Source of the DNA: Flammeovirgaceae bacterium
GTDB taxonomy: Bacteria > Bacteroidota > Bacteroidia > Cytophagales > Cyclobacteriaceae
DNA length: 64,000 nt
Assembly: GCA_015180985.1 (NCBI GenBank)
Contig: CP054185.1
Span: 2,417,225 to 2,481,224 of the forward strand
Reading direction: 5' to 3'
Below, in pieces: positions 27,203 to 60,418 of this stretch. The stretch's first letter is position 1. Each line of letters starts with the position of its first letter. The position numbers and the translations under genes were made by a program. A model generated the notes under the pieces. That model did no database searches. It was not told the DNA's origin and was given only the letters and a program-made list of their open reading frames with translations.

Positions 27203-27224
27203 ACAGCTAAGGTAAGCAATCAAT

Positions 27225-27247
27225 GCAACATGTTGCACAAACGTTTG
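27225..27247. promoter_or_regulatory. Two adjacent palindromes, candidate LacI-family operators
   Basis: GCAACATGTTGC (27225-27236) and CAAACGTTTG (27238-27247) are perfect inverted repeats lying side by side in the 167-base gap between lacI and the divergent amylase. CAAACGTTTG has the central CG usual for LacI-family operators and recurs within the site at 33213-33224. Confidence 0.6.
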
Positions 27248-27369
27248 AAAATCATTTTGAAAGAGATTTTTTCAATACCCCCGTTCACAGGCAGGTTTTA
27301 TTTTTACAGATGCCGTGAATGATTGTGATTGTATTTTATTTTTAAGCGGTGCAAGTAAATTGAAGTTGA

Positions 27370-30228: not shown

Positions 30229-30235
30229 CACCTGC

Positions 30236-30889: not shown

Positions 30890-30896
30890 TGTAGCA

Positions 30897-37040: not shown

Positions 37041-38534
37041 ATGAACAGCAGAATAATTAAAATACTGACAACGGCCATTGTGCTGGTAGCATTAGGTGCC
37101 TGCGAGGCCCCCGATCAGGAGTTGTTTAGTGTTATACCAAAGGAAATTCAGGATAATACTACTGATCCTACTGCTTTGAAGGCGATTGCTCAAAGCGCTT
37201 ACGTTCCGCTGATCGGAACCTGGGGTGGTCACAATTCACTGTGGTCAATGCACGAGGTTTCTTCCGATGAGATGGTTATCGCCCAAAAGGGTGCTGACTG
37301 GGAAGATGGCGGGCAATGGATCCGTATGCACCGCCACCAGTTTAATCCAAGTGAACAATCCATTGGTAACGGCTGGAATTATTGTTATTCCGCAATTGGC
37401 CAACTCAATAACCTGTTGAAAACGTATGGAAGCAACCCGTTGTTGCGTTCTGAACTGGAGTGCGTTCGGGCCTTGGTTTATTTGTGGCTAATTGATGCTT
37501 ATGGTAATGTGCCCATTGTTACTGAAACTTCAACCGATCCAACTCCGCCAACCAATACAAGGCAAGAAGTTTTTAATTTCATTGAAACGAGTATTCTTGA
37601 TAATATCGATAACCTCCGTCAGGAGAAGACTTACGCATCAATGAACTACTATGTTGCCCAAACGATACTGGCCAAGTTATACCTGAATGCGCAGGTTTAT
37701 ACCGGCACCGCTAAGTTTACAGAAGCCGCAGCAGCCGCAAATGAAGTCATCACCAGCGGGTTGTACTCATTAGAAGCGAATTATCTCGATAATTTTAAAA
37801 CGAATAACTCGGGTTCTAATGAGAACATATTTGTTATCAACTATGATGAAAATAACGGAGGTGGATTTAACCTTGGTCAAATGACAGGGCATTACCTTAC
37901 CCAGCAGACATTTAACTTACAGCAGCAACCCTGGAATGGGTACGCCACCCTTGAAGATTTTTATAATTCTTATGCATCAAATGATACGCGCAGAGGCAGT
38001 TTTCTGGTAGGACCTCAGTTTTCGTCCACCGGTGTTCGTTTGAAGGATTTAAGCGCTGAACCAGGTGATCCGGATGGCCAGGATCTGACCTTTACTCCTG
38101 AAATCAATGAGTTGGCGCCCAACAGTTTTCGGCAGGCGGGTGCACGGGTTGGCAAGTGGGAGTTCCGCCTGGGTGCTGGCCCCAACTTAAGCAATGATTT
38201 TCCGATTTTCCGTTATTCTGATGTATTGCTGATGCGTGCAGAAGCCCTGTGGAGGTTGAATCCTGCCAGTACAGAAGCGCTTAATCTGGTAAACCAGGTA
38301 CGGGCCCGTGCGCAAATTAACCCACTGGGTGCTTTAACGGCTGATGACCTGCTTGCTGAACGTGGCCGGGAAATGTTTGCTGAAGGCTACAGACGCTCCG
38401 ACCTTATTCGCTTCGGGAAGTTTAATGATGCATGGTGGGAGAAACCCGCTTCAGCGGCATTCAGGAATTTATTCCCGATACCACAAGGACAACTCCTGGT
38501 TAACCCTGACCTTGTACAAAATCCCGGGTATTGA
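37041..38534 (+). CDS. susD: SusD/RagB-type glycan-binding lipoprotein
   Basis: 497 residues. Signal with lipobox ALGAC; the mature protein is the lid for SusC. Family features are helical TPR-like repeats (SAIGQLNNLLKTYG, ECVRALVYLWLIDAYGNVPIVTETS, YVAQTILAKLYLNAQVYTG) and the C-terminal DVLLMRAEALWRLN and ERGREMFAEGYRRSDLIRFGKF block. It binds the alpha-glucan oligosaccharide at the cell surface. The gene ends the SusECD set and is followed by a terminator within 30 bases. Confidence 0.95.
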   Translation: MNSRIIKILTTAIVLVALGACEAPDQELFSVIPKEIQDNTTDPTALKAIAQSAYVPLIGTWGGHNSLWSMHEVSSDEMVIAQKGADWEDGGQWIRMHRHQFNPSEQSIGNGWNYCYSAIGQLNNLLKTYGSNPLLRSELECVRALVYLWLIDAYGNVPIVTETSTDPTPPTNTRQEVFNFIETSILDNIDNLRQEKTYASMNYYVAQTILAKLYLNAQVYTGTAKFTEAAAAANEVITSGLYSLEANYLDNFKTNNSGSNENIFVINYDENNGGGFNLGQMTGHYLTQQTFNLQQQPWNGYATLEDFYNSYASNDTRRGSFLVGPQFSSTGVRLKDLSAEPGDPDGQDLTFTPEINELAPNSFRQAGARVGKWEFRLGAGPNLSNDFPIFRYSDVLLMRAEALWRLNPASTEALNLVNQVRARAQINPLGALTADDLLAERGREMFAEGYRRSDLIRFGKFNDAWWEKPASAAFRNLFPIPQGQLLVNPDLVQNPGY

Positions 38535-38561: not shown

Positions 38562-38594
38562 AAGAAAGCGTCAAATTCTGACGCTTTCTTGTTT
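38562..38594 (+). terminator. Terminator after susD
   Basis: AAGAAAGCGTCA (38562-38573) pairs fully with TGACGCTTTCTT (38579-38590) around a five-base loop, followed by GTTTT. Confidence 0.85.
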
Positions 38595-38626: not shown

Positions 38627-41600
38627 GTGTGGAGGTATTCTTTTGTTCTTCTTTCTCTTCTTTTAAGCTGCAATCGTGATAAGCACCAAGCAGGTTTTGT
38701 ATTGATGCTGCCTGCTGATACCGGGGTAGATTTTGAAAACAGGCTTACATTCACCGAAGCGTTCAATTGTTATACCTATCGAAATTTTTACAACGGTGCA
38801 GGGGTTGCTATAGGTGATATTAATAATGACGGCCTGGCTGATATCTACTTTAGTGGTAACCAGGTTAACAACAAGTTGTATTTAAATAAAGGCAATTTTC
38901 AGTTTGAAGATATAACCGTAAAAGCAGGCGTGGCCTGTGAAAATGTCTGGTCAACCGGAGTAAGTATGGCTGACGTAAATGCAGATGGCTGGCTTGATAT
39001 TTTTGTATGTAAGTCGGGCCCGCCATTGGGGGGTGTCCGCCATAATGAGTTGTTCATTAATAATGGCGATTTAACTTTTACAGAGCGTTCTGCCGAATGG
39101 GGTGTGGCCGATGAAGGCCTTTCAATTCACGCTGTTTTTTTTGATTATGATAAAGATGGTGATCTGGATTTTTATCTATTGAATAATTCCAATCGCGCTG
39201 TGGGTATTTTCGATCTGAACATCGGGCAACGCAGCATTCGCGATCCCTTCGGGGGAAATAAACTTTACCGAAATGAAGGCAGTAAATTTACCGATGTAAG
39301 CGAACAGGCGGGTATTTATGGCAGCGCCATCGGCTTTGGTTTAGGGGTTACCGTTGCAGATGTTAATCGGGATGATTGGCAGGACATATTCGTAAGCAAT
39401 GATTTTTTTGAGCGCGACTATCTGTACATCAATAACCGCGATGGCACTTTTAGTGAAATGCTTGAGGAATGTATTAACGAAATAAGCCTGGGCTCAATGG
39501 GGGCTGATATTGCCGACCTGAATAATGACGGGTATCCTGAAATTTATGTTACCGAAATGCTGCCCGAAAAAATGGAGCGTAGAAAATCAACGGCTTTATT
39601 TGAAGATTGGAATAAATACGAAGCTAATCTTAACAATGGGTATTACAGGCAATTTAGCCGTAATGTGCTTCAGCTAAATAACGGACCCTTGCCCGAACAG
39701 CCCAATAGGGTGGTATTTAGTGAAATTGGCCGCTTTGCCGGTGTGGCTGCAACCGACTGGAGTTGGGGTGCGCTTATTTTTGATTACAACAATGATGGCC
39801 TTAAAGACATCTTTGTTGCTAATGGTATTCCTCGCGACTTGACCGACCAGGATTACATCGCTTTTGATGCCGCTGCTATGCTTCAACAGTTCCATCCTGA
39901 CAAGGATAGCCTGTTGCTTACTAAACTAATCAACCTGATTCCCTCCACACCGGTATCAAACTATTTGTTTAAGAATAACGGAGAACTCCGGTTTGTTAAT
40001 ACTGCTCGTGCATCTGATGTCGGCAAGCCTGGATTTTCTAATGGCGCTGCATATGGCGACCTGGATAATGATGGCGACCTGGACTTGGTTGTAAACAACA
40101 TTAATGAGGCAGCCGGTGTTTACAGGAATATGTCAAGAGAGTCGGACTTAAAAAGTTCAAACTTTATAATCCTGAACTTTTCAGGTTCGGCCGGCAACAC
40201 AAAATCCTTTGGTGCCAGGGCCGCTGTTTATTGTGCTGATTTAACCTTGCATGCCGAACATTCTCCTGTTAAAGGTTACATGTCATCCGTAGACCAACGC
40301 CTTCACTTTGGTTTGGGTGAGCGTACCCGGGTGGATTCAATAGTTATTTCCTGGCCTAATGGTGGTAAATCAACTCTACGGAATGTGCCCGCTAACCAGT
40401 TTTTAAATTTAAACGAGCCGGGTCCATCACCAACTGAATTTCAAAGGATAAACGAAAATGTGAAACCAATTTTCAGGGAAGTAATTTTTTCTTCAATTAA
40501 TTTTAAACATGTTGGCAATTCGTTTAATGATTTTAACAGGCATCCGATGCTGTTTGAAATGATGAGCAACGAAGGTCAACAGTTGGTTGTGTTCGATTTC
40601 AACGATGATGGACTGGATGATATTTTGATTGGCGGTTCGGCCGGCTTCGTTACTCACCTGTGGCTTCAGCAACCCAATGGTAATTTCAAAGAGTTGCGTC
40701 CTTTCGGAAAGGAATCACTTTTAGAATGCAAGGATATTGTTATTGACGATTTTAATTCCGATGGGTTACCCGATGTGTACCTTGCTGCAGGTGGTAGTCA
40801 GTTTTCAAATCAGGCGCCACAGTATCGTGATAAGCTCTATATTAATCAGGGTGATGTGAGGTTTGTGGAGGCACCACGAATACTGTCCAGCGGTGATAAA
40901 CCTGAAAGCACTTCGTTTACTTTTGCCATTGATTATGATAGAGATGGGATTGCTGATCTGGTTACCGGTGAGCGCCTTAAGCCCTTTCAATACGGTTTGC
41001 CTGCAGACGCCAGGTTATTAAAAGGTAATGGCGATGGTACCTTTAATGATGTTACAGACCGGATTGCTCCGGATTTAAAAAGTTGCGGCTTGCTCCGAAG
41101 CGGTGCATCGTTCGATTTTGATAAGGATGGTGATGAGGACATAGCCATAACAGGGGAATGGATGGGATTAACTGTTTTACGAAATGACAAGGATGTATTT
41201 ACTGATGTTTCTGTTCAACTTGGTCTGAAAGCCTCAACTGGTTTGTGGAATACCCTAACGGTTACGGATGTAAACAATGACGGATTTCCGGATCTCATTG
41301 CTGGTAATCAGGGTCTGAACTCAGCTTTTTCCGCTTCCCCTGAAAAGCCCCTTACCATGTATGTGCACGATTTTGATGGAAATGGCAGCCTTGAGCAGAT
41401 TATTTGTGTGCACGTTAATGGTAAGGACTATCCGCTAGCCATGTGGTCAACTTTGGTCAAACAGATTCCATCAGTTAAAAAAATCATACAACGGCACCAT
41501 GAGTATAAGGATAAATCGATTCAGGAAATTTTTGAACGCAATGTGTTGAATGCGGCTACAAAGCTGGAAGTCACCGAACTAAGCAGCATGGTTTACCTGA

Positions 41601-41950
41601 ATGATAATGGCAAACGTTTTTTGCCAATACCTCTTCCGTGGCAGGCCCAGTTAACAAAAGTTTATGCCATCCATTGTATGGATGTTAATGCTGACGGATT
41701 TATTGATTTGCTGCTTGCCGGCAACCAGTATAAAGCCAAACCTGAAGTAGGTATTTCGGCTGCCGGTTATGGTACACTTTTGCTTGGCAGAGGAGACGGA
41801 AGTTTTATGTACGTTAACCCTGCCCGGTCGGGTATATATGTAAATGGTGAAGTGCGCGATATTGAACAAATTAAAGTTAACCAGGATATATTTGTTATTT
41901 TTTTAATCAACAATGAGCCGTTGAAGTTTTTCAAACTAAACATACCATGA
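38627..41950 (+). CDS. FG-GAP/ASPIC-UnbV lipoprotein 1
   Basis: 1107 residues from GTG 38627. Lipobox-like LLLSC at the signal end. Two blocks of FG-GAP/VCBS repeats with calcium-type DxNxDGxxD loops (for example DINNDGLADIY, DVNADGWLDIF, DLDNDGDLDLV) flank an ASPIC/UnbV domain near residues 500-600 (RLHFGLGERTRVDSIVISWPNG). Such proteins fold as beta-propellers, and are common beside SusC/D genes in Cytophagales, though their role is not established; extracellular binding is plausible. Two paralogues follow. The stop overlaps the next gene's start by four bases (ATGA). Confidence 0.85.
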   Translation: MWRYSFVLLSLLLSCNRDKHQAGFVLMLPADTGVDFENRLTFTEAFNCYTYRNFYNGAGVAIGDINNDGLADIYFSGNQVNNKLYLNKGNFQFEDITVKAGVACENVWSTGVSMADVNADGWLDIFVCKSGPPLGGVRHNELFINNGDLTFTERSAEWGVADEGLSIHAVFFDYDKDGDLDFYLLNNSNRAVGIFDLNIGQRSIRDPFGGNKLYRNEGSKFTDVSEQAGIYGSAIGFGLGVTVADVNRDDWQDIFVSNDFFERDYLYINNRDGTFSEMLEECINEISLGSMGADIADLNNDGYPEIYVTEMLPEKMERRKSTALFEDWNKYEANLNNGYYRQFSRNVLQLNNGPLPEQPNRVVFSEIGRFAGVAATDWSWGALIFDYNNDGLKDIFVANGIPRDLTDQDYIAFDAAAMLQQFHPDKDSLLLTKLINLIPSTPVSNYLFKNNGELRFVNTARASDVGKPGFSNGAAYGDLDNDGDLDLVVNNINEAAGVYRNMSRESDLKSSNFIILNFSGSAGNTKSFGARAAVYCADLTLHAEHSPVKGYMSSVDQRLHFGLGERTRVDSIVISWPNGGKSTLRNVPANQFLNLNEPGPSPTEFQRINENVKPIFREVIFSSINFKHVGNSFNDFNRHPMLFEMMSNEGQQLVVFDFNDDGLDDILIGGSAGFVTHLWLQQPNGNFKELRPFGKESLLECKDIVIDDFNSDGLPDVYLAAGGSQFSNQAPQYRDKLYINQGDVRFVEAPRILSSGDKPESTSFTFAIDYDRDGIADLVTGERLKPFQYGLPADARLLKGNGDGTFNDVTDRIAPDLKSCGLLRSGASFDFDKDGDEDIAITGEWMGLTVLRNDKDVFTDVSVQLGLKASTGLWNTLTVTDVNNDGFPDLIAGNQGLNSAFSASPEKPLTMYVHDFDGNGSLEQIICVHVNGKDYPLAMWSTLVKQIPSVKKIIQRHHEYKDKSIQEIFERNVLNAATKLEVTELSSMVYLNDNGKRFLPIPLPWQAQLTKVYAIHCMDVNADGFIDLLLAGNQYKAKPEVGISAAGYGTLLLGRGDGSFMYVNPARSGIYVNGEVRDIEQIKVNQDIFVIFLINNEPLKFFKLNIP

Positions 41951-42510
41951 AAAAGTACCCCGCTTTATATTTTACCGCATTTATCTTAGCAATAACCATT
42001 ACTGCCTGCCGCCAATCGGAGTATGAGCGCCTGGTGAAAAACGAATTGGCGCGAAACGTTCGGTATGATTCGCTGTTTCTTGGGCTTCGTTTTAATATGA
42101 GCAGCAAAGAATTCTATACTGCTTGCTGGGAAATGAACAAGCAAGGCTTAATCATGCAAGGCCCCGGTAATCTGAGTGTCCAGTATCAACTGGACTCTTC
42201 TCAGATGCGGTCGCTAACCTACATGTGGTTTTATCCTGATTTTAAAAATGACTCTATTTATAAAATGCCGGTTGAGTTTCAATATGTCTATTGGTCGCCT
42301 GTATTTCAGCCTTTGTCAGCCGACTCACTGCTTGTGGATGTAAAGAATTTATTTGAAAAGTGGTATGGTGGTTCATTTCTATATCAGGAAAGTAAAGACG
42401 GTTTACAGAAAGTTTGGGTAAAAGTTGACGGGAACAGACGCATCCGGCTGTATAAAAAGAATATTTCAACTGTTAGCGCTGAATTTCTTGATCTGATTAA
42501 TTCTAAATGA
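41947..42510 (+). CDS. Small lipoprotein of unknown function
   Basis: 187 residues. Signal with lipobox ITAC; mature part starts CRQSEYERLVKNELARNVRYDSLFLGLRF and continues mixed alpha/beta with several Trp/Tyr residues (YMWFYPDF, FEKWYGGSFLYQ). No family is recognised. It is squeezed between two ASPIC paralogues with four-base overlaps at both ends, so it is translated as part of the same message and likely acts with them at the membrane. Confidence 0.75.
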   Translation: MKKYPALYFTAFILAITITACRQSEYERLVKNELARNVRYDSLFLGLRFNMSSKEFYTACWEMNKQGLIMQGPGNLSVQYQLDSSQMRSLTYMWFYPDFKNDSIYKMPVEFQYVYWSPVFQPLSADSLLVDVKNLFEKWYGGSFLYQESKDGLQKVWVKVDGNRRIRLYKKNISTVSAEFLDLINSK

Positions 42511-45500
42511 AAGTGAGTAAGCTTGGCTTTATACCTTTTATAGTAGCGTTGGCACTTACCGCATGCAACGTGCAGGACGACAATAATGCCCCACTCTTTA
42601 AATTAATGCCTGATTCCGATACCGGAATATCGTTTCGGAATGACCTTCCCTTCAACAGTGAGTTTAACATATTTACTTACCGGAATTTTTATAATGGCGG
42701 TGGCGTAGCTATTGGCGATGTTAACAATGACGGTTTAGCTGATATTTACTTAACAAGTAACCTCGGCTCGAACGCACTCTATTTGAATAAAGGAAATTTT
42801 AGATTTGAAGATATTACTGAAAAAGCCGGTGTAGCCGGTAAACAAGCGTGGAGTACCGGAGTGGCTATGGCTGATGTGAATGGCGATGGGTGGCTGGATA
42901 TTTATGTGTGCAATTCTGGCGACATTAAAAACGATAACCGCGAAAACGAATTATTTATAAACAATGGCGATTTAACATTTACAGAAAGTGCAGCTTCATG
43001 GGGCTTGAACGACAGGGGCTTTTCAACTCATGCTGCTTTTTTTGATTATGATAACGATGGCGATCTGGATGTTTACCTGCTCAACAACTCGTTTAAAGCC
43101 ATCGGCAGTTTTAACCTAATGCAGAATATACGCCATGAACGCGACTCAGTGGGAGGTGATAAATTATACCGGAATGACGGCAACCGGTTTACCGATGTGA
43201 GCATGGCAGCCGGCATTTATGGCAGTGTAATTGGTTTTGGTTTAGGTGTAACTGTAGGTGATGTGAACAATGATGGCTGGATGGATATTTTTATTTCCAA
43301 TGATTTTTTTGAGCGCGATTACTTATACCTCAATAACCGCAACGGCACCTTTCATGAAATTTTAGAACAGGCTATGCCCGGCATAAGTGCTGCTTCAATG
43401 GGCGCTGATATTGCCGATATAAATAACGATGGATGGCTTGACATTTTTGTAACCGATATGCTTCCCGAGCAATATGAACGATTAAAGCAGGTAACCATCT
43501 TTGAAAACTGGGATAAACTAACTTATAATGTACGCAACGGATACTACTACCAGTTTACCCGCAACATGCTTCATCTGAACAACGGCAACAATACGTTTAG
43601 TGACATAAGTCGTTTGGGTGGAGTTGAAGCAACAGACTGGAGCTGGGGGGCATTGATTTTTGACATGGACAATGATGGCTTGAAGGACATTTTTGTTGCA
43701 AACGGAATTTATAAAGACATTACCGATTTGGATTATCTGAACTTTATCGATAAGCCTGAAACCAAACAGAAAATAATTAACCGGCAACGTGTTGATTACC
43801 AGGCGCTCATTGATCCGATACCGGTTAATCCGGTACCCAACTATGCCTTTAAAAATATGGGTGGGTACCGCTTCGCTAATCACGCCTTGCCGTGGGGTCT
43901 TGGCGCCCCATCACATTCCAATGGTGCTGCTTACGGAGATCTGGATAACGATGGCGACCTGGATCTGGTTGTAAACAACGTAAACAATCAGGCCTCGGTT
44001 TTCCGTAATACAGTCAATGATACTCCCGGTTCAGCAAACTCTATACGCATTATTCTAAAAGGTAAATCGCCCAATACTTGGGCAATTGGCAGTCGTATCC
44101 AAATTTATGCGGGTGGTAACCGGTATACGTTTGAGCAAATGCCAAACCGGGGCTTTGAGTCATCAGTCGATCCGGTAATCGTTGCCGGATTAGGGTCTGC
44201 TGAATTCATTGATACTCTTCGCGTAGAATGGCCAGGAGCAACTGAAACCGTTTTAACCAAAATTAGTACAAACCAAACCCTGACCCTTTTACAAGAAGAA
44301 GCCAAAGAAAAATCAGCGAAGAAGCCGATTCAGAATTTAACCTGGTTTACCGAAGCAACGAAAACCGGCATTATTACAGCTGTACATCAGGAAAATGAGT
44401 TTATCGACTTTAACCGGGACCGACTTCTCTATCAAATGTATTCAACACTTGGCCCACGCATAGCCGTGGGCGATGTTAATAATGACGGACTTGATGACTT
44501 TTATCTGGGTGGTGCCAAAGGGTATGCCGGTCAATTGCTGGTGCAGAAACCGGATGGAAGCTTTAAACGCCAGCCGGTGCCTGTTTTTGAAATGGATAAG
44601 GATTACGAAGACGTTGATGCGGTATTCTTTGACTTTGATAACGATGAGGCCCTCGATTTATTCGTTGTTAGCGGTGGTAATGAATTTTCTTTTGGCGCCC
44701 CTGAATTGGTAAGCCGCTTATATCTGAATAATGGTCAGGGCCAATTCAGCCGATCTTCTCAGCCCGCACTTAACAATACCACAGGGGTGTCATCCACCGC
44801 ATGTGCCGGTGATTTTAACCGCGATGGCTTTACTGATTTATTTATTGGCACCCGCTTTAAGGCCTTTCAATATGGAATACCTGCGGGCGGTTTTATTTAT
44901 CAAAACGATAAGACGGGCAGGCTGGTGGATGTTACCCGCCAGGTAGCACCCGAATTAGCCGATGTTGGCATGATAACCGATTCAAAGTGGGTAGACTATG
45001 ATTCTGATGGCGACCTTGATCTGATACTGGTTGGTGAGTGGATGGCTGTTGAGGTTTTCGAGAATCAGCAGGGTATGCTTAAAAGAGAAACAACTGACCT
45101 TGATATAACTAACTTATCCGGCTGGTGGAACGTGGTAGAAGCGGCTGACCTTGATCAGGATGGTGATATTGACTTTGTGTTAGGCAATCATGGTTACAAT
45201 TCACGGTTCAGGGCCGGTGCAAAAGAGCCCGTTTTATTGTATGTAAATGATTTTGATTTCAACGGAAGCCTTGAGCATATCTATGCAAAGAAAACAGCCG
45301 GCAGAATTCTGCCTTATGCTTTAAAGCACGACTTGGTGGCTCAATTACCCGGGTTAAAAAAGAATTACCTGGAATACAAAAAATTTAACAGTCAAACCGT
45401 TGACGAAATTTTTAATAAGGAGCAGCTTCAATCTGCTTTGGTACATCAGGCGGTTCAATTTGCTTCCGGTATTTTAGAAAACGTCAACGGCCGATTTGTA

Positions 45501-45827
45501 TTCCATGAGTTGCCCATTGAAGCACAATTTTCACCGGTTTATGCCATTTTGATTACAGATGTTAATGAAGATGGCATAAGTGACCTCGTTTTGGGTGGCA
45601 ATTTGTATGAGGTTAAGCCCGAAGCCGGGCAATACGATGCCAGTTATGGTTTGGTGCTGCTTGGAAAAGGTAATTTGGAGTTTACCTCAATTGTAACTAC
45701 GGTCTCGGGCTTTCAGGTAAGGGGCGCTGTACGCGATATCAGTCTGGTAAAGACACCGGCTGCCGTGCTTACCGTGGTGGCCCTGAATAACGATAGCCTT
45801 AGGGTGTTTGTAAGAAATCGTAAATGA
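42507..45827 (+). CDS. FG-GAP/ASPIC-UnbV lipoprotein 2
   Basis: 1106 residues with classic lipobox ALTAC. Same architecture as the preceding paralogue: N-terminal FG-GAP repeats (DVNNDGLADIYL, DVNGDGWLDIYV), ASPIC domain (about 510-600, ending DTLRVEWPGATETVL), a second repeat block and a C-terminal segment FHELPIEAQFSPVYAILITDVNEDG. The strong likeness to neighbours at 38627 and 45824 indicates tandem duplication. It overlaps both neighbours by four bases. Confidence 0.85.
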   Translation: MKVSKLGFIPFIVALALTACNVQDDNNAPLFKLMPDSDTGISFRNDLPFNSEFNIFTYRNFYNGGGVAIGDVNNDGLADIYLTSNLGSNALYLNKGNFRFEDITEKAGVAGKQAWSTGVAMADVNGDGWLDIYVCNSGDIKNDNRENELFINNGDLTFTESAASWGLNDRGFSTHAAFFDYDNDGDLDVYLLNNSFKAIGSFNLMQNIRHERDSVGGDKLYRNDGNRFTDVSMAAGIYGSVIGFGLGVTVGDVNNDGWMDIFISNDFFERDYLYLNNRNGTFHEILEQAMPGISAASMGADIADINNDGWLDIFVTDMLPEQYERLKQVTIFENWDKLTYNVRNGYYYQFTRNMLHLNNGNNTFSDISRLGGVEATDWSWGALIFDMDNDGLKDIFVANGIYKDITDLDYLNFIDKPETKQKIINRQRVDYQALIDPIPVNPVPNYAFKNMGGYRFANHALPWGLGAPSHSNGAAYGDLDNDGDLDLVVNNVNNQASVFRNTVNDTPGSANSIRIILKGKSPNTWAIGSRIQIYAGGNRYTFEQMPNRGFESSVDPVIVAGLGSAEFIDTLRVEWPGATETVLTKISTNQTLTLLQEEAKEKSAKKPIQNLTWFTEATKTGIITAVHQENEFIDFNRDRLLYQMYSTLGPRIAVGDVNNDGLDDFYLGGAKGYAGQLLVQKPDGSFKRQPVPVFEMDKDYEDVDAVFFDFDNDEALDLFVVSGGNEFSFGAPELVSRLYLNNGQGQFSRSSQPALNNTTGVSSTACAGDFNRDGFTDLFIGTRFKAFQYGIPAGGFIYQNDKTGRLVDVTRQVAPELADVGMITDSKWVDYDSDGDLDLILVGEWMAVEVFENQQGMLKRETTDLDITNLSGWWNVVEAADLDQDGDIDFVLGNHGYNSRFRAGAKEPVLLYVNDFDFNGSLEHIYAKKTAGRILPYALKHDLVAQLPGLKKNYLEYKKFNSQTVDEIFNKEQLQSALVHQAVQFASGILENVNGRFVFHELPIEAQFSPVYAILITDVNEDGISDLVLGGNLYEVKPEAGQYDASYGLVLLGKGNLEFTSIVTTVSGFQVRGAVRDISLVKTPAAVLTVVALNNDSLRVFVRNRK

Positions 45828-48800
45828 ATAAGCGCACCCTGATACCAATAGCAGCATGCATATTCCTGTCAATGTGCCGTGAGCAGGAAAATAACTGGTC
45901 GTTTATACCCCCATCACAAAGCGGAGTATCGTTTGCCAATACCCTTGTTGAAGATGAGAGCAATAACATTATAGAGTACCTCTATTTTTATAACGGTGCA
46001 GGTGTAGCCGCAGGCGATATCAACAATGATGGCCTTACCGATCTCTTCTTTGTTTCTAACCAGGGTTCCAATGTACTGTATTTGAACAAAGGAAATCTTA
46101 AGTTCAAGGACATTACTCAATCATCCGGAATCAAATCCAAAAGAAAATGGGAAACGGGTGTAACCATGGCCGACATTAATGGGGACGGTTTTCTTGACAT
46201 TTATGTATGTGGTGTTGGCGGATACCGGCATTTCAACGGCCGTAACCAATTGTACCTGAACAATGGCGATTTAACATTTACCGAACAGGCGGCCGAATTC
46301 GGTATTGATTTTACCGGTTTTTCAACACATGCCAGTTTTTTTGATTATGATAATGATGGTGATTTGGATATGTATCTGCTTAATCACAGCGTGCATACCC
46401 CGCGTTCCTATGCGCCCGGTGATGTGCGCTTGCTTAGCGATTCCCTTTCGGGAGACAAACTTTATAAGAATCAATTAGTGGAGTCGGGGAAGGTTCTTTT
46501 TGAAGATGTAACAAAACAGGCTGGCATTCTTAACAGCCATATCGGATATGGATTGGGTGTAGCTGTGGCTGATGTAAACTGGGATGGCTTTGCTGATCTG
46601 TACATCGGCAACGATTTCCATGAGAATGACTACCTGTACATCAATAACGGTGACGGCACCTTTAAGGAAATTATCCGCAACGCTACAACTCACACAAGCC
46701 GGTTTTCAATGGGAAATGATATTGCCGATTTTAATAATGACCTATGGCCTGATATTGTTGCGGTTGATATGCAGCCGAGAAATGAACAGGTTCGCAAGCG
46801 TTCGGCCGGTGAAGATGCTTATGATATTTTCAATTTTAAACTTAAATATGGGTATCATGCTCAGGTTGCACGGAATACCCTTCAGTTAAATGCCGGAATG
46901 CATCAGGGAACACCGTTGTTTAGCGAGATGGCCTACCTGGCCGGCATCGCCTCTACCGATTGGAGTTGGGCGCCCTTGTTTGCAGATTTTAATAATGATG
47001 GTTTTAAGGACTTGTACATTACCAACGGCATTGTACGAAGGCCAAATGATATGGACTATATCAGTTACATTGCTCATGACTCCGTTCAGCTTTCACTTCA
47101 GGTTTTTGATAAGAACGATTTGGAAATACTAAAAAAAATGCCCGAAGGAAAAGAATCTAATTTTCTGTTCCTTAATCGTTCAAACTATACATTTCAGGAT
47201 ATAACCCATACTGCCGGGCTCTTTCGCCCTTCCTTCTCCAATGGCGCCACGTATGCCGATCTGGACAATGATGGCGATTTGGATTTGGTTGTAAATAATA
47301 TTAACGAGCCGGCACACATTATTCGGAACAATACAGGCAGGCAACAGGGAAACTACCTGGCTGTTTCGCTTCACGGCCCCGCAGGGAATACTTTTGGCGT
47401 GGGGGCCAAAGTAATACTGTTTACCGGTGGTGCCCGGCAACTGCAACACCTTATGCCTGCCCGGGGTTGGTGTTCATCAGTTGATGGCCGCCTTCATTTT
47501 GGCGTAGGCAGTCACGCTTTGATTGATTCGGTAATGGTTATTTGGCCGGGTAATCGTATGCAGATTCTTAAATCGGTAACTGCCAACCAACAGGTCACTA
47601 TTGATTATAGTAATAATAATCGGGCTTTTACTAATAATGTTTTATTCGGTAACCAGCAATTTCTACTTACGGCTGTAACCCCGGTGCCTGATTACCGGCA
47701 TGTTGAAAACGAATACAACGCCTTTGCTTCTGAAACACTTATTCCGCACATGTTGTCAGAACAGGGCCCACCCAGTGCAGTTGGTGACGTTAACGGTGAT
47801 GGCCTGGATGACTTTTTTATTGGTGGCGGCAGGGGGCAAAGCGGTGCATTATATATTCAAAAAACTAACGCAAGTTTTACACATTCTGATCAACCCGCAT
47901 TCCTTGCGGATGTTTCTGATGAAGATACAGCCGCTGCTTTTGCTGATGTTGATGGGGATGGCGATCCCGACCTGATAGTGGCAGCGGGCGGTCAGGAAAC
48001 TAATCAGCAATTAATTCCACGGCTTTATATTAACGAAAAGGGCCGATTTGCTAGGCATACGTTTCCACCAGTATCAATTAACGCATCCTGCATTAAGCCG
48101 GCTGATTTTGACAACGATGGTGATGTGGATTTGTTTATTGGCTCTAATGTAATTCCGGGCTTGTACGGAATGAGCCCGCTGAGCTTTCTATTCAATAATG
48201 ATGGCAGTGGAAATTTTTCTGTTAATCAAACTTGGTTAGCCCATGCTAATTTTGATAATGTTACCCGCGTGCGGCCGGGCATGGTAAAAGATGCTGACTG
48301 GACCGACATTAATGGCGATGGCTTGCCTGACCTGATGTTGCTGGGTGAATGGATGCCGGTAACTTTATTAATACAACAGCCCAATCACACATTTGTAAAT
48401 AAAACCGAAGCCTACGGCCTGGCAGGAACTTCCGGGTTGTGGAATGCCATGCTAGCCACCGATTTGGATAATGATGGTGACGTAGACTTTGTATGTGGTA
48501 ACCTGGGATTAAATTCACGGCTTACAGCTTCAACCAGCAAACCCCTGCAGATGCTACTGGGCGATTTTGATGCAAATCAAAGTTCCGATCACATTCTAAT
48601 CTATTATAATGGCGATTCGGCCTATGTATTTCCTACCCGCGACCAACTGATAAAACAGTTGCCATTTTTAAAGAAACGACTGCTAAAGTATAAGGATTTT
48701 TCAACAATACAGGTGGAGAATCTATTGTCTGCTGAACAATTGGCAAATGGCAGCAAACTGCAGGTTACTGAATTATCTTCGGTAGTGCTTGAGAATACCG

Positions 48801-49147
48801 GAGGAAAATTTATTGTTAGACCCCTGCCGATTGAAGCCCAAATGTTTCCGGTGTGTGCAATTGAAGCGGATGACCTGGATGACGATGGCATTTTGGATAT
48901 TCTGCTTGCCGGTAATCAATCTGCGGTGCAGCCTGAAATCGGGCCGCATGATGCGGGCTTGGGCTTAGTACTCAAAGGAATCGGTGGTTGCCAATTTCAA
49001 TCGATTGCACCTCACACCTCTGGCTTTTTTGTTACAGGTGAAGTTCGTAGTTCAGGAATTTTACGATCAAATGAAAACCAGTACCTGTATCTTTTTGGCA
49101 GAAATGGCAACTCTTTAGTTATCTTTAAAAGAAAACCAGCAGATTGA
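45824..49147 (+). CDS. FG-GAP/ASPIC-UnbV lipoprotein 3
   Basis: 1107 residues. Signal followed by LSMC, an atypical lipobox, so lipid attachment is less certain than for copies 1 and 2. Repeats (DINNDGLTDLFF, DINGDGFLDIYV, DLDNDGDLDLVV) and the ASPIC domain (RLHFGVGSHALIDSVMVIWPGN) match the paralogues, but a loop near residues 185-210 differs (LLNHSVHTPRSYAPGDVRL). The stop and the next ATG share one base (TGATG), keeping the polycistronic chain. Confidence 0.85.
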   Translation: MNKRTLIPIAACIFLSMCREQENNWSFIPPSQSGVSFANTLVEDESNNIIEYLYFYNGAGVAAGDINNDGLTDLFFVSNQGSNVLYLNKGNLKFKDITQSSGIKSKRKWETGVTMADINGDGFLDIYVCGVGGYRHFNGRNQLYLNNGDLTFTEQAAEFGIDFTGFSTHASFFDYDNDGDLDMYLLNHSVHTPRSYAPGDVRLLSDSLSGDKLYKNQLVESGKVLFEDVTKQAGILNSHIGYGLGVAVADVNWDGFADLYIGNDFHENDYLYINNGDGTFKEIIRNATTHTSRFSMGNDIADFNNDLWPDIVAVDMQPRNEQVRKRSAGEDAYDIFNFKLKYGYHAQVARNTLQLNAGMHQGTPLFSEMAYLAGIASTDWSWAPLFADFNNDGFKDLYITNGIVRRPNDMDYISYIAHDSVQLSLQVFDKNDLEILKKMPEGKESNFLFLNRSNYTFQDITHTAGLFRPSFSNGATYADLDNDGDLDLVVNNINEPAHIIRNNTGRQQGNYLAVSLHGPAGNTFGVGAKVILFTGGARQLQHLMPARGWCSSVDGRLHFGVGSHALIDSVMVIWPGNRMQILKSVTANQQVTIDYSNNNRAFTNNVLFGNQQFLLTAVTPVPDYRHVENEYNAFASETLIPHMLSEQGPPSAVGDVNGDGLDDFFIGGGRGQSGALYIQKTNASFTHSDQPAFLADVSDEDTAAAFADVDGDGDPDLIVAAGGQETNQQLIPRLYINEKGRFARHTFPPVSINASCIKPADFDNDGDVDLFIGSNVIPGLYGMSPLSFLFNNDGSGNFSVNQTWLAHANFDNVTRVRPGMVKDADWTDINGDGLPDLMLLGEWMPVTLLIQQPNHTFVNKTEAYGLAGTSGLWNAMLATDLDNDGDVDFVCGNLGLNSRLTASTSKPLQMLLGDFDANQSSDHILIYYNGDSAYVFPTRDQLIKQLPFLKKRLLKYKDFSTIQVENLLSAEQLANGSKLQVTELSSVVLENTGGKFIVRPLPIEAQMFPVCAIEADDLDDDGILDILLAGNQSAVQPEIGPHDAGLGLVLKGIGGCQFQSIAPHTSGFFVTGEVRSSGILRSNENQYLYLFGRNGNSLVIFKRKPAD

Positions 49148-51165
49148 TGATTCGCCTTGTTGCAATACTCTGCATTTTTTATTCACACCTGTGTGCGCAG
49201 TCTGATTGGAACATTACGGCAACCACTATTAACCCAGCCAACTATTACGGAGTTACCGTAGCCAATGGCATGATTGGCCTGGTATCCTCGCCTGAACCAA
49301 TGAAGGTAAAAGATGTAGTGCTCAATGGTGTTTATGATTATTACCAGCGCGGCCGCGTATCTAACATCCTCAAATCCTTCAATCATGTAAATATGAACCT
49401 CGATGTGGATGGGGTTCGCATTTCCCGTAAGGATGTTTCAGATTACCGCCAGGAACTGGATATGAAAAGGGCAGTGCTAACCACCCGATTTGAAGTGAGT
49501 GACAAAGTAAATGTAACCCACTCTCTGATGGCGCTTAGACACTTGCCATACACCGCTTTGAGCACAGTTACCATTTCGGCAAAGAAAAATGTGCGTATAA
49601 GCCCGATGAGTGTAATTGAGGCACCCGACCACCTTACCGATGTTAGAAACTATTACAGCGAAATTGACAGGCCGCATGTTAAAATACCGTTGCTCACTTC
49701 GGTAGCCAGAAGTCCTTCTGGTAAGCATGTTGTTGCGGCCAGTACTAGTTTTATATTTAATGAGCCCCACGGCAAGGAACCGGATGTTATTCACGAAGAT
49801 TGGGACTACAACATGCATCTTGCTAAGTTTACGAAGGAACTTAATGCGGGTGAGTCATATAGTTTTAGTGTAGTTTCTTCGGTAACTTCTACTGCTCACT
49901 ATGGCGATCCGCACAACGAAGCTGAACGCCTTACTATTTTTGCAGTGCTTGAACGCACCGAGCGACTGATGAACCTTCATAAAGAAGCCTGGAATAAACT
50001 CTGGCAAAGCGATATTGTAGTTGCCGGTGATCCGCAGGCTCAGAAAGACATCCGGTTTGCATTGTATCATTTGTTTTCCTTTGCCCGCGAGGGTACAGCG
50101 TACAGCCTTTCGCCTATGGGCCTCAGTGGTTTGGGGTATAACGGTCATGTTTTCTGGGATACTGAGTTGTGGATGTATCCGCCATTGCTCGTGCTTCAGC
50201 CTGAAATAGCGAAGTCCTTATTAGAATACAGGTACCAGCGGTTAAGTGCTGCAAAGCAAAATGCCTTTTCGCATGGCTATAACGGAGCCATGTTCCCGTG
50301 GGAGTCATCAGCAGAAGGATCGGAAGATACACCCGTGTGGGCCCTGACCGGGCCTTTTCAACACCATATTACGGGTTGCGTTGGCTGGGCTTTTTGGAAA
50401 TACTATCAGGTGACCAAAGATAAGGCGTGGCTTCGCGAGCGGGGGTATCCAGTTTTAAAAGAGGTGGCTGATTTCTGGGCAAGCCGGGTTGAACGAAAAG
50501 GCCCCGGCCGCTTTGAAATCAACAATGTTATCGGTGCCAACGAATGGCAGGAGAATATTAACAATAACGCCTTTACTAATGGAATGGCCCGAACTGTTTT
50601 GCGTTATGCTACCCAGGCTGCAAAGGAGTTAGGCGTTGTTCCCGACCCGGATTGGGAGCATGTTGCCCAAAATATTCCTATTCTCAAGTTTCCGGATGGT
50701 ACCACCCGCGAGAACGAGACTTACAACGGTGAAATGATAAAACAGGCTGATGTAAACCTGTTGGCATTTCCACTGGAAGTCATTTCCGATCGGACGCAAA
50801 TTGAAAAGGACTTATCCTACTACGAGACAAGAATGTCGCCTGAAGGCCCCGCTATGGGATTTGCTGTTTTAGCAACGCTGTATGCCCGCCTTGGCAAGCC
50901 TGATAAAGCGTATAATATCTTCTTAAAAAGTTATAAACCCAACGAAGTACCGCCTTTTGGTGTGCTGGCCGAGACAGCCGGTGGATCCAATCCATACTTT
51001 GCTACGGGTGCCGGGGGTATGCTGCAAACGGTATTGTTCGGTTTTGCCGGACTTCAGATTTCGGACACCGGTATCAGCCAGCGGAAGATACCATTACCTT
51101 CTGGCTGGCGATCGGTAGAGGTAAGAGGAGTAGGTATTAATAAAATTGCAATTGTTCAAAAGTAG
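49147..51165 (+). CDS. Exported GH65-family enzyme
   Basis: 672 residues from ATG 49147 with signal peptide MIRLVAILCIFYSHLCAQ, so periplasmic or secreted. GH65 features are VANGMIGLVSSPEP, GHVFWDTELWMYPPLLVLQPE, YNGAMFPWESS and the catalytic-acid region VIGANEWQENINNNAFTNGMA (Glu466). A periplasmic GH65 has no access to pooled beta-phosphoglucomutase, so hydrolysis (trehalase- or glucosyl-disaccharide hydrolase-like) is more plausible than phosphorolysis; this is inferred. It contrasts with the cytosolic GH65 at 30897 and closes the ASPIC chain. Confidence 0.8.
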   Translation: MIRLVAILCIFYSHLCAQSDWNITATTINPANYYGVTVANGMIGLVSSPEPMKVKDVVLNGVYDYYQRGRVSNILKSFNHVNMNLDVDGVRISRKDVSDYRQELDMKRAVLTTRFEVSDKVNVTHSLMALRHLPYTALSTVTISAKKNVRISPMSVIEAPDHLTDVRNYYSEIDRPHVKIPLLTSVARSPSGKHVVAASTSFIFNEPHGKEPDVIHEDWDYNMHLAKFTKELNAGESYSFSVVSSVTSTAHYGDPHNEAERLTIFAVLERTERLMNLHKEAWNKLWQSDIVVAGDPQAQKDIRFALYHLFSFAREGTAYSLSPMGLSGLGYNGHVFWDTELWMYPPLLVLQPEIAKSLLEYRYQRLSAAKQNAFSHGYNGAMFPWESSAEGSEDTPVWALTGPFQHHITGCVGWAFWKYYQVTKDKAWLRERGYPVLKEVADFWASRVERKGPGRFEINNVIGANEWQENINNNAFTNGMARTVLRYATQAAKELGVVPDPDWEHVAQNIPILKFPDGTTRENETYNGEMIKQADVNLLAFPLEVISDRTQIEKDLSYYETRMSPEGPAMGFAVLATLYARLGKPDKAYNIFLKSYKPNEVPPFGVLAETAGGSNPYFATGAGGMLQTVLFGFAGLQISDTGISQRKIPLPSGWRSVEVRGVGINKIAIVQK

Positions 51166-51177
51166 ATTTAAGTAGGT

Positions 51178-52524
51178 ATGAGGGTGTTTAGGTGTTTTTT
51201 TTTATGTGTTATTTTTTTAACAGGCTGTACAACAAGCAACAAAAATTATCAACCCGCAGCCAGCAATGCTGAATTTTTGCATCGATCGATAAAGGCAATT
51301 ACTGATCGTATTGTTCATGATATTTTCTCGCCACCGGTAGCCAGCCGCATTTATGCCTATACATGTGTGGCAGCCTATGAGGCAGTAGTTCCGTTTCATG
51401 CTGATTTAATTTCACTGGCTGGCCAGGTAAACGGTCTGAACGAAGTTCCTCAGCCCGAGGCCGGGCTTGAATATGCCCCCACACTGGCAAGCGTTCAGGC
51501 GGCACTGCAGGTTGGTAGGGCGCTGATCTTTTCCGAATCGGATCTGGATGAATTTTATAATCAGGTAATGAGCGAGTTTAAACAAACAGGTATGCCTGAT
51601 GCTGTTTTTGATCGTTCGGTTGCTTATGGTAAGGCGGTAGCCAAGCACATACTGGCATGGGCCGATAAGGACAATTACAAGCAGTCAAGGTCATTTCCTA
51701 AATTCACCATTACCCAGGATCCGGCCCGCTGGCGGCCAACGCCTCCGGCTTATATGGATGCCGTTGAACCCCATTGGATGACCATCCGGCCTTTTGTGTT
51801 AGACTCATCCACCCAGTTTATTCCAGCTCCGCCAATCCCGTTCTCCACAAAAAAAGATAGTCCGTTCTACAAAGCTGCCTATGCGGTTTATGAAACAGGT
51901 AAAAATTTAACGGAAGAACAACGCCAGATTGCCTCCTTCTGGGACTGCAACCCCTTTGTAATGAATGTTCATGGACATGTAATGTTTGCTTCTAAGAAAA
52001 TTTCTCCCGGTGGTCATTGGATAAACATCGTACGGGTTGCCTGTACCAAAAAGCAGGCTGATGTGGCAACCACTGCCGAAGTCTATGCCCGTGTTGCCCT
52101 GGCTCTTGCCGATGGGTTTATCAGTTGTTGGGATGAAAAATACCGAAGCAATCTGGTTCGACCGGAAACCTATATCAACCAGTTTATCGACCAGAACTGG
52201 GTACCCTTGCTTCAAACCCCGCCATTTCCTGAGCACACCAGCGGGCATAGTGTTATTTCAACTGCTGCAGCCGTAACGTTAACTGATCTTTTTGGCGATA
52301 ATTTTGAATTTACCGATGATACCGAGCTTGAATTTGGTTTAGGCCAACGAAGTTTCAAATCCTTTGTTGAGGCCAGCCAGGAAGCGGCCATAAGCCGGTT
52401 TTACGGAGGAATACATTATAGGGCAGCTATTGATGAAGGTGCTAAACAGGGCCGTAAAGTTGGCGAATGGGTAGTTGCCAATATCACCACAAGAAAGAAG
52501 GCAACAGCACCAGTAAACCCTTAA
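51178..52524 (+). CDS. Vanadium haloperoxidase/PAP2-like lipoprotein
   Basis: 448 residues. Lipobox FLTGC. The family signature near the C-terminus is RPETY, PPFPEHTSGHSVIS and SRFYGGIHYRAAIDEG, corresponding to the vanadate/phosphate-binding Arg, Ser-Gly-His and Arg/His residues of the PAP2-haloperoxidase superfamily. The N-terminal half is helical (ASRIYAYTCVAAYEAV, ASVQAALQVGRALIF). Many Bacteroidota members have no proven haloperoxidase activity and may be phosphatases. It lies 12 bases after the GH65 gene and two before the DUF3179 gene. Confidence 0.85.
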   Translation: MRVFRCFFLCVIFLTGCTTSNKNYQPAASNAEFLHRSIKAITDRIVHDIFSPPVASRIYAYTCVAAYEAVVPFHADLISLAGQVNGLNEVPQPEAGLEYAPTLASVQAALQVGRALIFSESDLDEFYNQVMSEFKQTGMPDAVFDRSVAYGKAVAKHILAWADKDNYKQSRSFPKFTITQDPARWRPTPPAYMDAVEPHWMTIRPFVLDSSTQFIPAPPIPFSTKKDSPFYKAAYAVYETGKNLTEEQRQIASFWDCNPFVMNVHGHVMFASKKISPGGHWINIVRVACTKKQADVATTAEVYARVALALADGFISCWDEKYRSNLVRPETYINQFIDQNWVPLLQTPPFPEHTSGHSVISTAAAVTLTDLFGDNFEFTDDTELEFGLGQRSFKSFVEASQEAAISRFYGGIHYRAAIDEGAKQGRKVGEWVVANITTRKKATAPVNP

Positions 52525-52526
52525 GA

Positions 52527-58622: not shown

Positions 58623-58699
58623 ATTCAGCTATTCAATTACGCCACAATACCCTAAAAGCATTACTTTTATCAGAGCACACTACCGTCAATTTGCCACTT

Positions 58700-60400: not shown

Positions 60401-60418
60401 TTTTAACCTGCTTAGTGT

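Follow-up and report, generated by a model that had tools for sequence, protein, structure and literature searches.

Three large FG-GAP/ASPIC proteins (here called A1, A2 and A3) and a small lipoprotein (sLP), encoded downstream of a SusC-SusD pair in a 64,000-nucleotide stretch of DNA from a Flammeovirgaceae bacterium (the window), appear from comparison of loci to belong to an old cassette of fixed gene order, common to many environmental Bacteroidota. It would thus be both broader and older than the preliminary description of this DNA had proposed. We hypothesise that one dedicated family of SusC-SusD outer-membrane transporters has A1, sLP, A2 and A3 as its accessory lipoproteins, and that these function in ligand capture at the surface. 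We put the probability of this reading at roughly 0.55.

The genes are listed in Table 1. The preliminary description had noted a chain of genes overlapping by four bases, and the ORF coordinates bear this out: the A1-sLP-A2 and A2-A3 junctions each overlap by 4 nt, an arrangement resembling that found in translational coupling. The listed GH65 ORF starts at a TTG at 49144, but the next codon is an ATG at 49147, which is the last base of the A3 stop codon. With this ATG, the one-base run into GH65 that had also been claimed is correct. The N-terminus of GH65 is signal-peptide-like, as judged by eye and not by a predictor. For the DUF3179 gene, the ATG at 52527 is a better fit than the listed start at 52467. 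Profile matches show that the SusC/RagA and SusD/RagB genes adjoin. The chain is not continuous with SusD, because a gap of 92 nt containing a hairpin intervenes.

Table 1. Features of the SusC-SusD-ASPIC locus and its neighbours (window coordinates).
Feature	Position	Strand	Description
SusE/F-like lipoprotein	33310..34029	+	Weak assignment: PF16411 SusF_SusE E 6.9e-5, 23.7 bits, below the 27.5-bit cut-off; lipobox-like N-terminus by eye
SusC TonB-dependent transporter	34052..37033	+	TIGR04056 OMP_RagA_SusC 638.4 bits, cut-off 368.25
SusD-like lipoprotein	37041..38534	+	PF07980 E 1.1e-28; in the SusD clade found with sLP-type ASPIC cassettes (SusD tree)
Terminator-like hairpin, putative attenuator	38562..38590	+	12 pairs, T-rich tail, in the SusD-A1 gap
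A1	38627..41950	+	FG-GAP/ASPIC lipoprotein, 1107 aa, GTG start, first-position clade; ASPIC domain residues 528-593
sLP	41947..42510	+	187-aa lipoprotein between A1 and A2; relatives at the same place elsewhere
A2	42507..45827	+	FG-GAP/ASPIC lipoprotein, 1106 aa, second-position clade; ASPIC domain residues 526-593; second propeller about 610-1106
A3	45824..49147	+	FG-GAP/ASPIC protein, 1107 aa, groups with third-position proteins; ASPIC domain residues 525-592; unusual lipobox
GH65 kojibiose-hydrolase-type enzyme	49147..51165	+	ATG start; probably exported
PAP2/vanadium-iodoperoxidase-family protein	51178..52524	+	448 aa; lipobox-like N-terminus; match to 4cit
DUF3179 protein	52527..53705	+	PF11376 E 1.1e-52; cassette membership uncertain

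The domains of the three large proteins were analysed using Pfam. A1, A2 and A3 contain 8, 9 and 7 FG-GAP_3 stretches, scoring 253.7, 251 and 246.2 bits against a cut-off of 26.9. Each also has a single UnbV_ASPIC domain (E 2.6e-20, 7.5e-16 and 3e-19; 72.5, 58.2 and 69.1 bits; cut-off 23.4). They are the only UnbV_ASPIC matches at E <= 0.001 in their own 3.38-Mb genome; across 59 genomes, this one included, the number per genome ranges from 0 to 40. The earlier claim of three lipoproteins of about 1100 residues agrees with the lengths and with the lipoboxes of A1 (LLSC) and A2 (LTAC), and sLP has ITAC. The A3 lipobox is unusual, being either LSMC, with Met at position -1, or an earlier IAAC. 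A loose lipobox pattern is present in 20 of 26 third-position proteins, window A3 being counted by means of IAAC. In a separate alignment of 26 proteins, the lipid-anchor Cys is invariant. Like the surface glycan-binding proteins of Sus-type PULs (SusE/F), the three are encoded with SusCD as lipoproteins, but they differ in having no Pfam match to PF16411 at E <= 0.001.

AlphaFold generated a model for A2 with pLDDT 84.8 and pTM 0.86, which aligns with CRTAC1 (9etn) at Z 40.9 over 459 residues (2.4 A). The second propeller of the model aligns with the LGI1 EPTP domain at Z about 31. On the basis of this one model, the proteins are predicted to adopt a CRTAC1-like fold (a propeller plus the ASPIC part) with an additional propeller. 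When the ASPIC profile was run against PDB sequences, just CRTAC1 and integrins were found below E 0.1. The animal protein CRTAC1 (cartilage acidic protein 1) is secreted. It shares the FG-GAP propeller and ASPIC/UnbV domain, whereas the window proteins are bacterial lipoproteins with a second propeller (in the A2 model) and are encoded with SusCD. The VCBS propeller supercluster likewise has PF13517 FG-GAP_3/VCBS-type blades with Ca loops, but the term ASPIC is absent from the accessible text describing it (PMC8023676).

For sLP, there was no Pfam or NCBIfam match at E <= 0.001, and nothing significant among PDB sequences (best E 0.9). Its AlphaFold model has a pLDDT of 94.0. A fold name was considered and rejected: Foldseek gave no match at E <= 0.001, and the best VIA-align Z of 6.9 is too weak.

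The recurring unit consists of SusC-SusD, a gap of about 90 nt that often holds a terminator-like hairpin, and A1-sLP-A2-A3, often with a vanadium-iodoperoxidase-family gene. It was characterised in 80 named loci, the best 80 of at least 579 confirmed stretches, and the sample therefore leans towards this cassette. Genes in the neighbourhood maps were labelled using profiles built from the window genes and their matches, not Pfam, and genes that are fragmented or lost at contig ends make the presence counts too low; one set of maps leaves DUF3179 and GH31 genes unlabelled, their profiles having been left out, and among the 20 control loci, one (L129) contains an ORF of 398 aa labelled as ASPIC. 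The median gap is -4 nt for A1-sLP, sLP-A2 and ASPIC-ASPIC, and 89 nt for SusD-A1; the overlaps are upper bounds, because first possible start codons were used. Cassettes with one, two and four ASPIC copies also occur.

A tree was constructed from 215 ASPIC proteins, all over 900 aa, with position labels taken from the neighbouring genes. A1, A2 and A3 each join their positional counterparts from other Bacteroidota families. Thirty-one of 33 first-position proteins (those with sLP next) lie in one clade with window A1 (support 1.0), and 31 of 32 proteins directly behind sLP lie in one clade with window A2 (0.78). All 25 third-position proteins fall with window A3 in a wider clade of 79 (support 1.0), which also includes second-, third- and 6 first-position proteins from cassettes without sLP. 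The tree points to A1, A2 and A3 being old paralogues that have kept their positions, and so upholds the duplication and specialisation suggested previously. Recent local amplification is ruled out by the positional tree and by same-genus loci that have the same order.

The association with SusCD is similarly persistent. In 60 of the best 80 of at least 579 loci, a SusD gene is located no more than 5 genes upstream in the same orientation; none was seen in the other 20, some of which are cut at contig ends. In two whole genomes a SusD match lies within 10 kb upstream of 15 of the 23 ASPIC matches, whereas 2000 rotations gave 0.5 on average and 10 at most (using rounded genome sizes and 68 of 72 SusD rows, the other 4 being second fragments of genes already counted); 8 of the 23 have no PF07980 SusD upstream. 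A linkage to SusECD and glucosidases had been proposed, of which the SusCD part is supported by these counts; the SusE-like gene is a weak assignment.

The SusD genes of sLP-type cassettes form their own clade. In the SusD tree all 32 of them lie in one clade of 34 (support 0.984), and the tree requires 13 label changes, whereas 200 shuffles required 51.6 on average and never fewer than 43. The ASPIC-rich SusD clade has 73 members, of which 4 are labelled as without a following ASPIC, and 13 of 50 SusD followed by ASPIC without sLP lie outside it. Among the 16 best matches to the window SusD in the 59 genomes, its own included (E <= 4.6e-90), ASPIC follows directly in 15 and after two genes in one. 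Eight of the next 9 were examined, and none is directly followed by ASPIC. More distant SusD of the ASPIC type recur further down the list (L012, L154, L107, L018), and the dedication is therefore without a clean similarity border. Concordant trees are also expected from shared inheritance of a linked block. Within the same genus, two divergent versions of the whole SusC-SusD-ASPIC block precede the same GH65 gene: relative to the window, one locus (L014) has a GH65 match of 76% but a SusC match of 34%, and another (L004) has 77% and 72%.

Hairpins were found in 32 of 54 SusD-ASPIC gaps, as against a mean of 1.2 and a maximum of 4 after shuffling. These gaps, of 40-400 nt, come from 53 of 66 SusD-ASPIC neighbours plus the window, and the shuffle was of two-base blocks, not strictly dinucleotide. 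A hairpin follows SusD in 54 of 78 cases when ASPIC comes next, and in 15 of 50 when it does not follow directly.

These observations suggest that the three propeller lipoproteins probably serve SusCD as its own capture unit at the surface. The double-propeller proteins would be displayed on the cell surface, docked on or around SusCD as non-redundant subunits, with sLP as a small partner of A1/A2. The hairpin would allow SusCD to be produced at higher levels than the large propellers, and the genes behind the cassette would adapt it to a substrate. BtuG is a β-propeller, and the BtuG-BtuB system has one propeller and is not known to include a SusD. By analogy with BtuG on BtuB, the propeller subunits would capture ligand and pass it to SusD/SusC; no glycan-binding residue was identified in them. 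The likeness considered here is one of function; BtuG-BtuB of Bacteroides serves vitamin B12 uptake and is a stable complex of a surface lipoprotein with a TonB-dependent transporter (PMC6143338, PMC10404256). More tentatively, SusC-SusD-A1-sLP-A2-A3 might represent an undescribed, widespread class of outer-membrane uptake machine. In it, SusCD would be combined with a dedicated small lipoprotein and three CRTAC1-like double-propeller lipoproteins, each distinct, and the hairpin after susD would set the expression ratio. The machine would often be coupled to an iodoperoxidase-family enzyme and could import small glycosides or non-glycan ligands, for which no polysaccharide depolymerase need be encoded at the locus.

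The preliminary description had suggested glycan binding, with α-glucans in view, and the window itself is in keeping with a specific α-glucan role. The GH65 enzyme scores 1122.8 bits against NF053734 (cut-off 800) and 793 bits to the FjGH65A structure (7fe3), and the block also holds GH13, GH31, a second GH65 and the SusE-like gene. Of the 13 genomes of this genus with at least 2 ASPIC matches, the window's own among them, 12 have the close kojibiose hydrolase. FjDexUL of Flavobacterium johnsoniae, which has a related GH65, acts on branched dextran; according to the accessible text (PMC10316084), in which the terms FG-GAP and VCBS do not appear, its eight genes are SusR, C, D and E/F homologues, GH66, GH31, GH97 and GH65, none being FG-GAP. 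GH66 and GH97 were not found among the Pfam-scanned window proteins, which represent part of its ORFs. Elsewhere the same cassette adjoins GH127, amidase, glycerol kinase/GlpD-like, 3-keto-disaccharide hydrolase or trehalase genes, which speaks against a specific α-glucan role for it. Four loci (L021, L025, L035, L042) have no glycosidase among the 1-3 downstream genes scanned, and two from the same family (L016, L019) have the A1-sLP-A2-A3 set without GH65, their genomes giving no GH65 match at E <= 1e-30. It is thus rather unlikely that A1-A3 are specific binding proteins for branched dextran or starch, and a dextran-locus label from GH65 alone is ruled out by the differing neighbours. The α-glucan link appears to be local to the window, where the substrate is probably an α-glucoside or branched α-glucan, because a kojibiose hydrolase and other α-glucosidases lie behind the cassette.

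We consider it improbable that the ASPIC proteins act as enzymes, such as sugar lyases or dehydratases, with the active site in a propeller. Aldos-2-ulose dehydratase contains propellers of the VCBS type, and these are related to the RGL11 family of rhamnogalacturonan lyases (PMC8023676, accessible text). Few glycosidases lie behind the ASPIC loci of two genomes, among the families listed (25 of 66 and 25 of 112). The second propeller of A2 does align with the dehydratase (4a7k) at Z 27.4, but many unrelated propellers score Z 25-31; the match is therefore generic, and a catalytic reading based on it was rejected. Moreover, the residues conserved across the three positions are mostly D, N and G of the repeats together with core aromatics, and no catalytic motif was identified.

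Slightly less probable still is that the cassette, instead of capturing nutrients, acts together with the iodoperoxidase-family protein in redox or halide chemistry at the surface. The window PAP2 protein matches the vanadium iodoperoxidase of Zobellia galactanivorans (4cit) at E 2.1e-149, with aligned segments KYRSNL[VI]RPE, TSGHS and SR.YGGIHYRAAI. These retain K-x6-RP, SGH and SR-x3-G-x-H, which we take to be the active-site segments of the family. For at least 31 of 50 strong family matches (E <= 1e-100), a listed ASPIC match is no more than 10 kb away. Against this, 4 of 12 strong matches in five single-contig genomes are not near a listed ASPIC (3 in G040, 1 in G001), one genome (G012, L151) has the peroxidase with no ASPIC match, and a PAP2 gene was seen in only 11 of the 32 named sLP loci (from the best 80 of at least 579), several of whose stretches are cut.

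Recent tandem duplication for dosage, with no distinct roles, would suit the equal lengths and tandem position, but deserves almost no credence in view of the positional grouping across several families, the pairwise identities of 46.6, 39.3 and 42.4%, and the conserved residues private to each position (4 in A1, 8 in A2, 10 in A3).

No description of the cassette was found among the literature matches listed for ASPIC/FG-GAP proteins with SusCD, Bacteroidetes or iodoperoxidase, where a lower-ranked paper could be missed. The Arenibacter genome paper (PMC5064120) gives SusD counts and five iodoperoxidase homologues, not linked to each other. In their accessible text, PMC3174227 and PMC2668756 mention ASPIC/UnbV or FG-GAP just in passing, and PMC11036162 and PMC11345257 lack the terms FG-GAP, VCBS and ASPIC. 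ASPIC/FG-GAP proteins are numerous in some environmental Bacteroidota, and the earlier statement that their role is not established agrees with these matches, in which no bacterial function is assigned. The present analysis links iodoperoxidase-family genes to SusCD-ASPIC loci. It also cautions that one adjacent glycosidase is poor ground for naming the substrate of such a locus. The fixed order, with its own SusD group and frequent hairpin, turns 'FG-GAP repeat protein' into a testable hypothesis, namely that these proteins are subunits of a nutrient-uptake complex.

The cassette consists of SusC and SusD genes, three genes (A1, A2 and A3) for FG-GAP/UnbV_ASPIC proteins, here called ASPIC, and a gene for a small lipoprotein, sLP. 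The coordinates agree with the preliminary description of three large genes and a small lipoprotein gene that overlap, by 4 nt at the A1/sLP, sLP/A2 and A2/A3 junctions and by one base at the end of A3, where the ATG at 49147, a possible GH65 start, shares one base with the A3 stop. The 3.38-Mb genome has three ASPIC matches, all in this cassette.

Cassette genes in the window
Gene	Coordinates	Content
A1	38627-41950	FG-GAP_3 repeats and one UnbV_ASPIC domain
sLP	41947-42510	small lipoprotein gene
A2	42507-45827	FG-GAP_3 repeats and one UnbV_ASPIC domain
A3	45824-49147	FG-GAP_3 repeats and one UnbV_ASPIC domain

Upstream of A1 lie the genes for a SusE-like protein (match below cut-off), SusC and SusD. 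Neither Pfam nor NCBIfam gives a match for sLP at E <= 0.001. The GH65 protein scores 1122.8 bits against the NCBIfam kojibiose hydrolase equivalog and 793 bits against FjGH65A, and the first gene 3' of it encodes a lipobox-bearing protein related to the Zobellia iodoperoxidase (E 2.1e-149). A DUF3179 ORF, listed at 52467-53705, shares 58 nt with this peroxidase gene; an internal ATG at 52527 is its likelier start. The window also contains an upstream alpha-glucan block (26162-33188: LacI regulator, GH13, a HAD-family beta-phosphoglucomutase-like gene and a second GH65) and, at 58691-61057, a GMC oxidoreductase followed by a 212-aa protein, which has no match in NCBIfam and is read as of the gluconate-dehydrogenase-small-subunit type.

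The cassette is found well beyond the genus. A genome collection representing 84,980 species by one genome each was scanned, and among the best 80 of 579 loci the complete order SusC-SusD-A1-sLP-A2-A3 is kept in Roseivirga (L021), Algoriphagus (L025) and Maribacter (L027, L087). It also occurs in Marinoscillum (L035, L037), Phaeodactylibacter (L042), Saprospiraceae (L054) and a Bacteroidales MAG (L026), among others, with a fourth ASPIC gene added in Chryseolinea (L061). Of these best 80 loci, 60 have a same-strand SusD no more than five genes upstream, 32 have sLP, 34 a peroxidase-family (PAP2) gene, 11 both of these, and 9 a GH65 of any type. In two single-contig genomes, 15 of 23 ASPIC matches are preceded by a same-strand PF07980 SusD at a distance of no more than 10 kb; 2000 rotations gave 0.5 on average and at most 10. 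In the 59-genome comparison set, own genome included, 19 have an sLP match (weak in G056), each together with at least one ASPIC match. Two MAGs labelled Gemmatimonadaceae/Gemmatimonas (L046, L070) carry SusC-SusD-ASPIC runs, reflecting either transfer outside Bacteroidota or mis-binning.

Position within the cassette is mirrored in a tree of 215 ASPIC proteins. First-position proteins with sLP downstream fall into one clade with window A1 (31 of 33, support 1.0), and those directly after sLP into another with window A2 (31 of 32, support 0.78). All 25 third-position proteins lie with window A3 in a broader clade (79 proteins, support 1.0), which also includes proteins from sLP-less cassettes (22 second-position, 13 third-position and 6 first-position) plus 12 unplaced. 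The positional exceptions are L058 and L079. At L058 (Neolewinella maritima) the first- and second-position proteins cluster together, counter to the general pattern, as after recent duplication or gene conversion. Residues private to a position, conserved at 90% there and below 20% in the others, number 4 for A1, 8 for A2 and 10 for A3. The copies and their specialisation are old, and the copies keep their positions.

In a tree of 114 SusD proteins, including some from ASPIC-less loci, all 32 of the sLP type fall in a clade of 34 (support 0.984), nested in a larger clade, rich in ASPIC-type SusD, of 73 members (support 1.0). The latter also holds 37 of 50 SusD followed by ASPIC without sLP, 13 lying outside, and 4 of the 32 labelled as having no ASPIC gene after them. 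The labels change 13 times on the tree, against a mean of 51.6 and a minimum of 43 in 200 shuffles. Among the 59 genomes, own included, the best 16 matches to the window SusD (E <= 4.6e-90) have ASPIC as the next gene in 15 cases and after two genes in the remaining one (G040, L116). In the next nine rows ASPIC comes directly after in none of the eight fetched (L144-L150, L153), but ASPIC-type SusD recur further down (L012, L154, L107, L018), so that there is no clean similarity border.

Within the cassette the genes are tightly packed, with median gaps of -4 nt for A1-sLP (n=38), sLP-A2 (n=38) and ASPIC-ASPIC (n=77); the SusD-A1 gap has a median of 89 nt (n=66). A terminator-like hairpin with a T-rich tail is present in 32 of 54 SusD-ASPIC gaps, against a mean of 1.2 and a maximum of 4 in 50 shuffles. 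Within 150 nt after SusD a hairpin is found in 54 of 78 cases with ASPIC next, compared with 15 of 50 without ASPIC directly next, some of the latter being interrupted ASPIC loci. In the window the hairpin lies 36 nt from A1, with little room for a promoter. We infer read-through attenuation.

In the genus sample of 17 genomes, own included, 13 have at least two ASPIC matches. All 13 have a strong iodoperoxidase-family match, and 12 a close kojibiose hydrolase, which among the 13 is missing only from G011 (81% complete); close GH65 was found in none of the other four. One of these four (G012, L151) has an iodoperoxidase-family gene of 61% identity with neither an ASPIC match nor a close kojibiose hydrolase. 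In the fetched same-genus loci, two versions of the block stand ahead of similarly close GH65 and peroxidase genes. The first, SusC-SusD-A1-sLP-A2-A3, is found in the window, L003 and L004, and partly cut or diverged in L001, L005 and L012. The second (L008, L009, L013, L014) combines a distant SusC (32-36%) and SusD (28-30%) with three ASPIC genes; sLP is missing, and a gene of about 300 aa precedes GH65. Identity to the window GH65 is 76% in L014 and 77% in L004, while for SusC it is 34% and 72%. We read the transporter and ASPIC genes as having been exchanged together, although GH65 and peroxidase may have moved instead. The two 300-aa genes scanned (L009, L014) give weak GyrI-like matches under the Pfam cut-off. 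In cassettes without sLP (L009, L014, L015, L066, L083, L093), proteins of this kind are encoded close to the peroxidase or the final ASPIC gene, with PF06445 over the cut-off in L015, L066 and L093 only.

The genes behind the cassette vary: amidase and a glyoxalase-domain gene (L021), a xylose-isomerase-like gene (L025), three GH127 (L027), GH13 (L034), FGGY kinase and glycerophosphate-oxidase-like genes (L035), aldo-keto reductase and 3-keto-disaccharide hydrolase (L037), trehalase with MFS and GH65 (L054), or trehalase (L001, L018). Because the downstream genes differ elsewhere, the alpha-glucan link belongs to the window lineage and not to the ASPIC family. Trehalase, trehalose-phosphate synthase/phosphatase, or FGGY kinase with glycerophosphate-oxidase-like genes adjoin the cassette in L022, L001, L018, L054 and L035, a hint that small alpha-glucoside osmolytes (trehalose, glucosylglycerol) may be ligands. 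Among 48 proteins behind ASPIC loci in two genomes, the 25 of 66 families listed include PAP2 (5), GH43 (1) and sulfatase (1), whereas for 70 genes after ASPIC-less SusD the 25 of 112 listed include GH32 (3), GH43 (3), GH2 (2), GH30 (1) and sulfatase (2), a glycosidase contrast that is indicative only. Iodoperoxidase-family genes show strong linkage to ASPIC genes: for at least 31 of 50 strong matches a listed ASPIC match is no more than 10 kb away. Unlinked copies exist as well in several carriers. PAP2 stands inside the cassette in L031 (sLP-PAP2-ASPIC) and upstream of SusC in L152.

The AlphaFold model of A2 (pLDDT 84.8, pTM 0.86) matches CRTAC1 (9etn; Foldseek E 3.9e-28, Z 40.9 over 459 residues), and this match is assigned to the N-terminal half because the ASPIC domain is at 526-593. 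A second predicted propeller, at about 610-1106, resembles LGI1 EPTP (Z about 31) and the propeller of aldos-2-ulose dehydratase (Z 27), values of a kind that many propellers reach and that do not point to a function. The predicted sLP model (pLDDT 94) gave no convincing match in structure comparison.

SusCD uptake loci with surface lipoproteins are a known type, of which the ASPIC-sLP set is apparently an undescribed variant: no description of a SusCD-ASPIC-sLP set was found in the literature searched, which was mainly open-access and in part covered only by its higher-ranked matches, so that this is no proof of absence. BtuG has a propeller fold. BtuG on BtuB is the closest working analogue, by analogy and not as a claim of family: a lipoprotein at the cell surface that forms a stable complex with a TonB-dependent transporter (PMC10404256). 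In the probable mode of action, A1-A3 would be displayed on the cell surface by lipid anchors, and the propeller lipoproteins would dock on SusCD. Propeller faces with Ca would capture ligand and hand it over to SusD/SusC, and the neighbouring enzymes would adapt the cassette.
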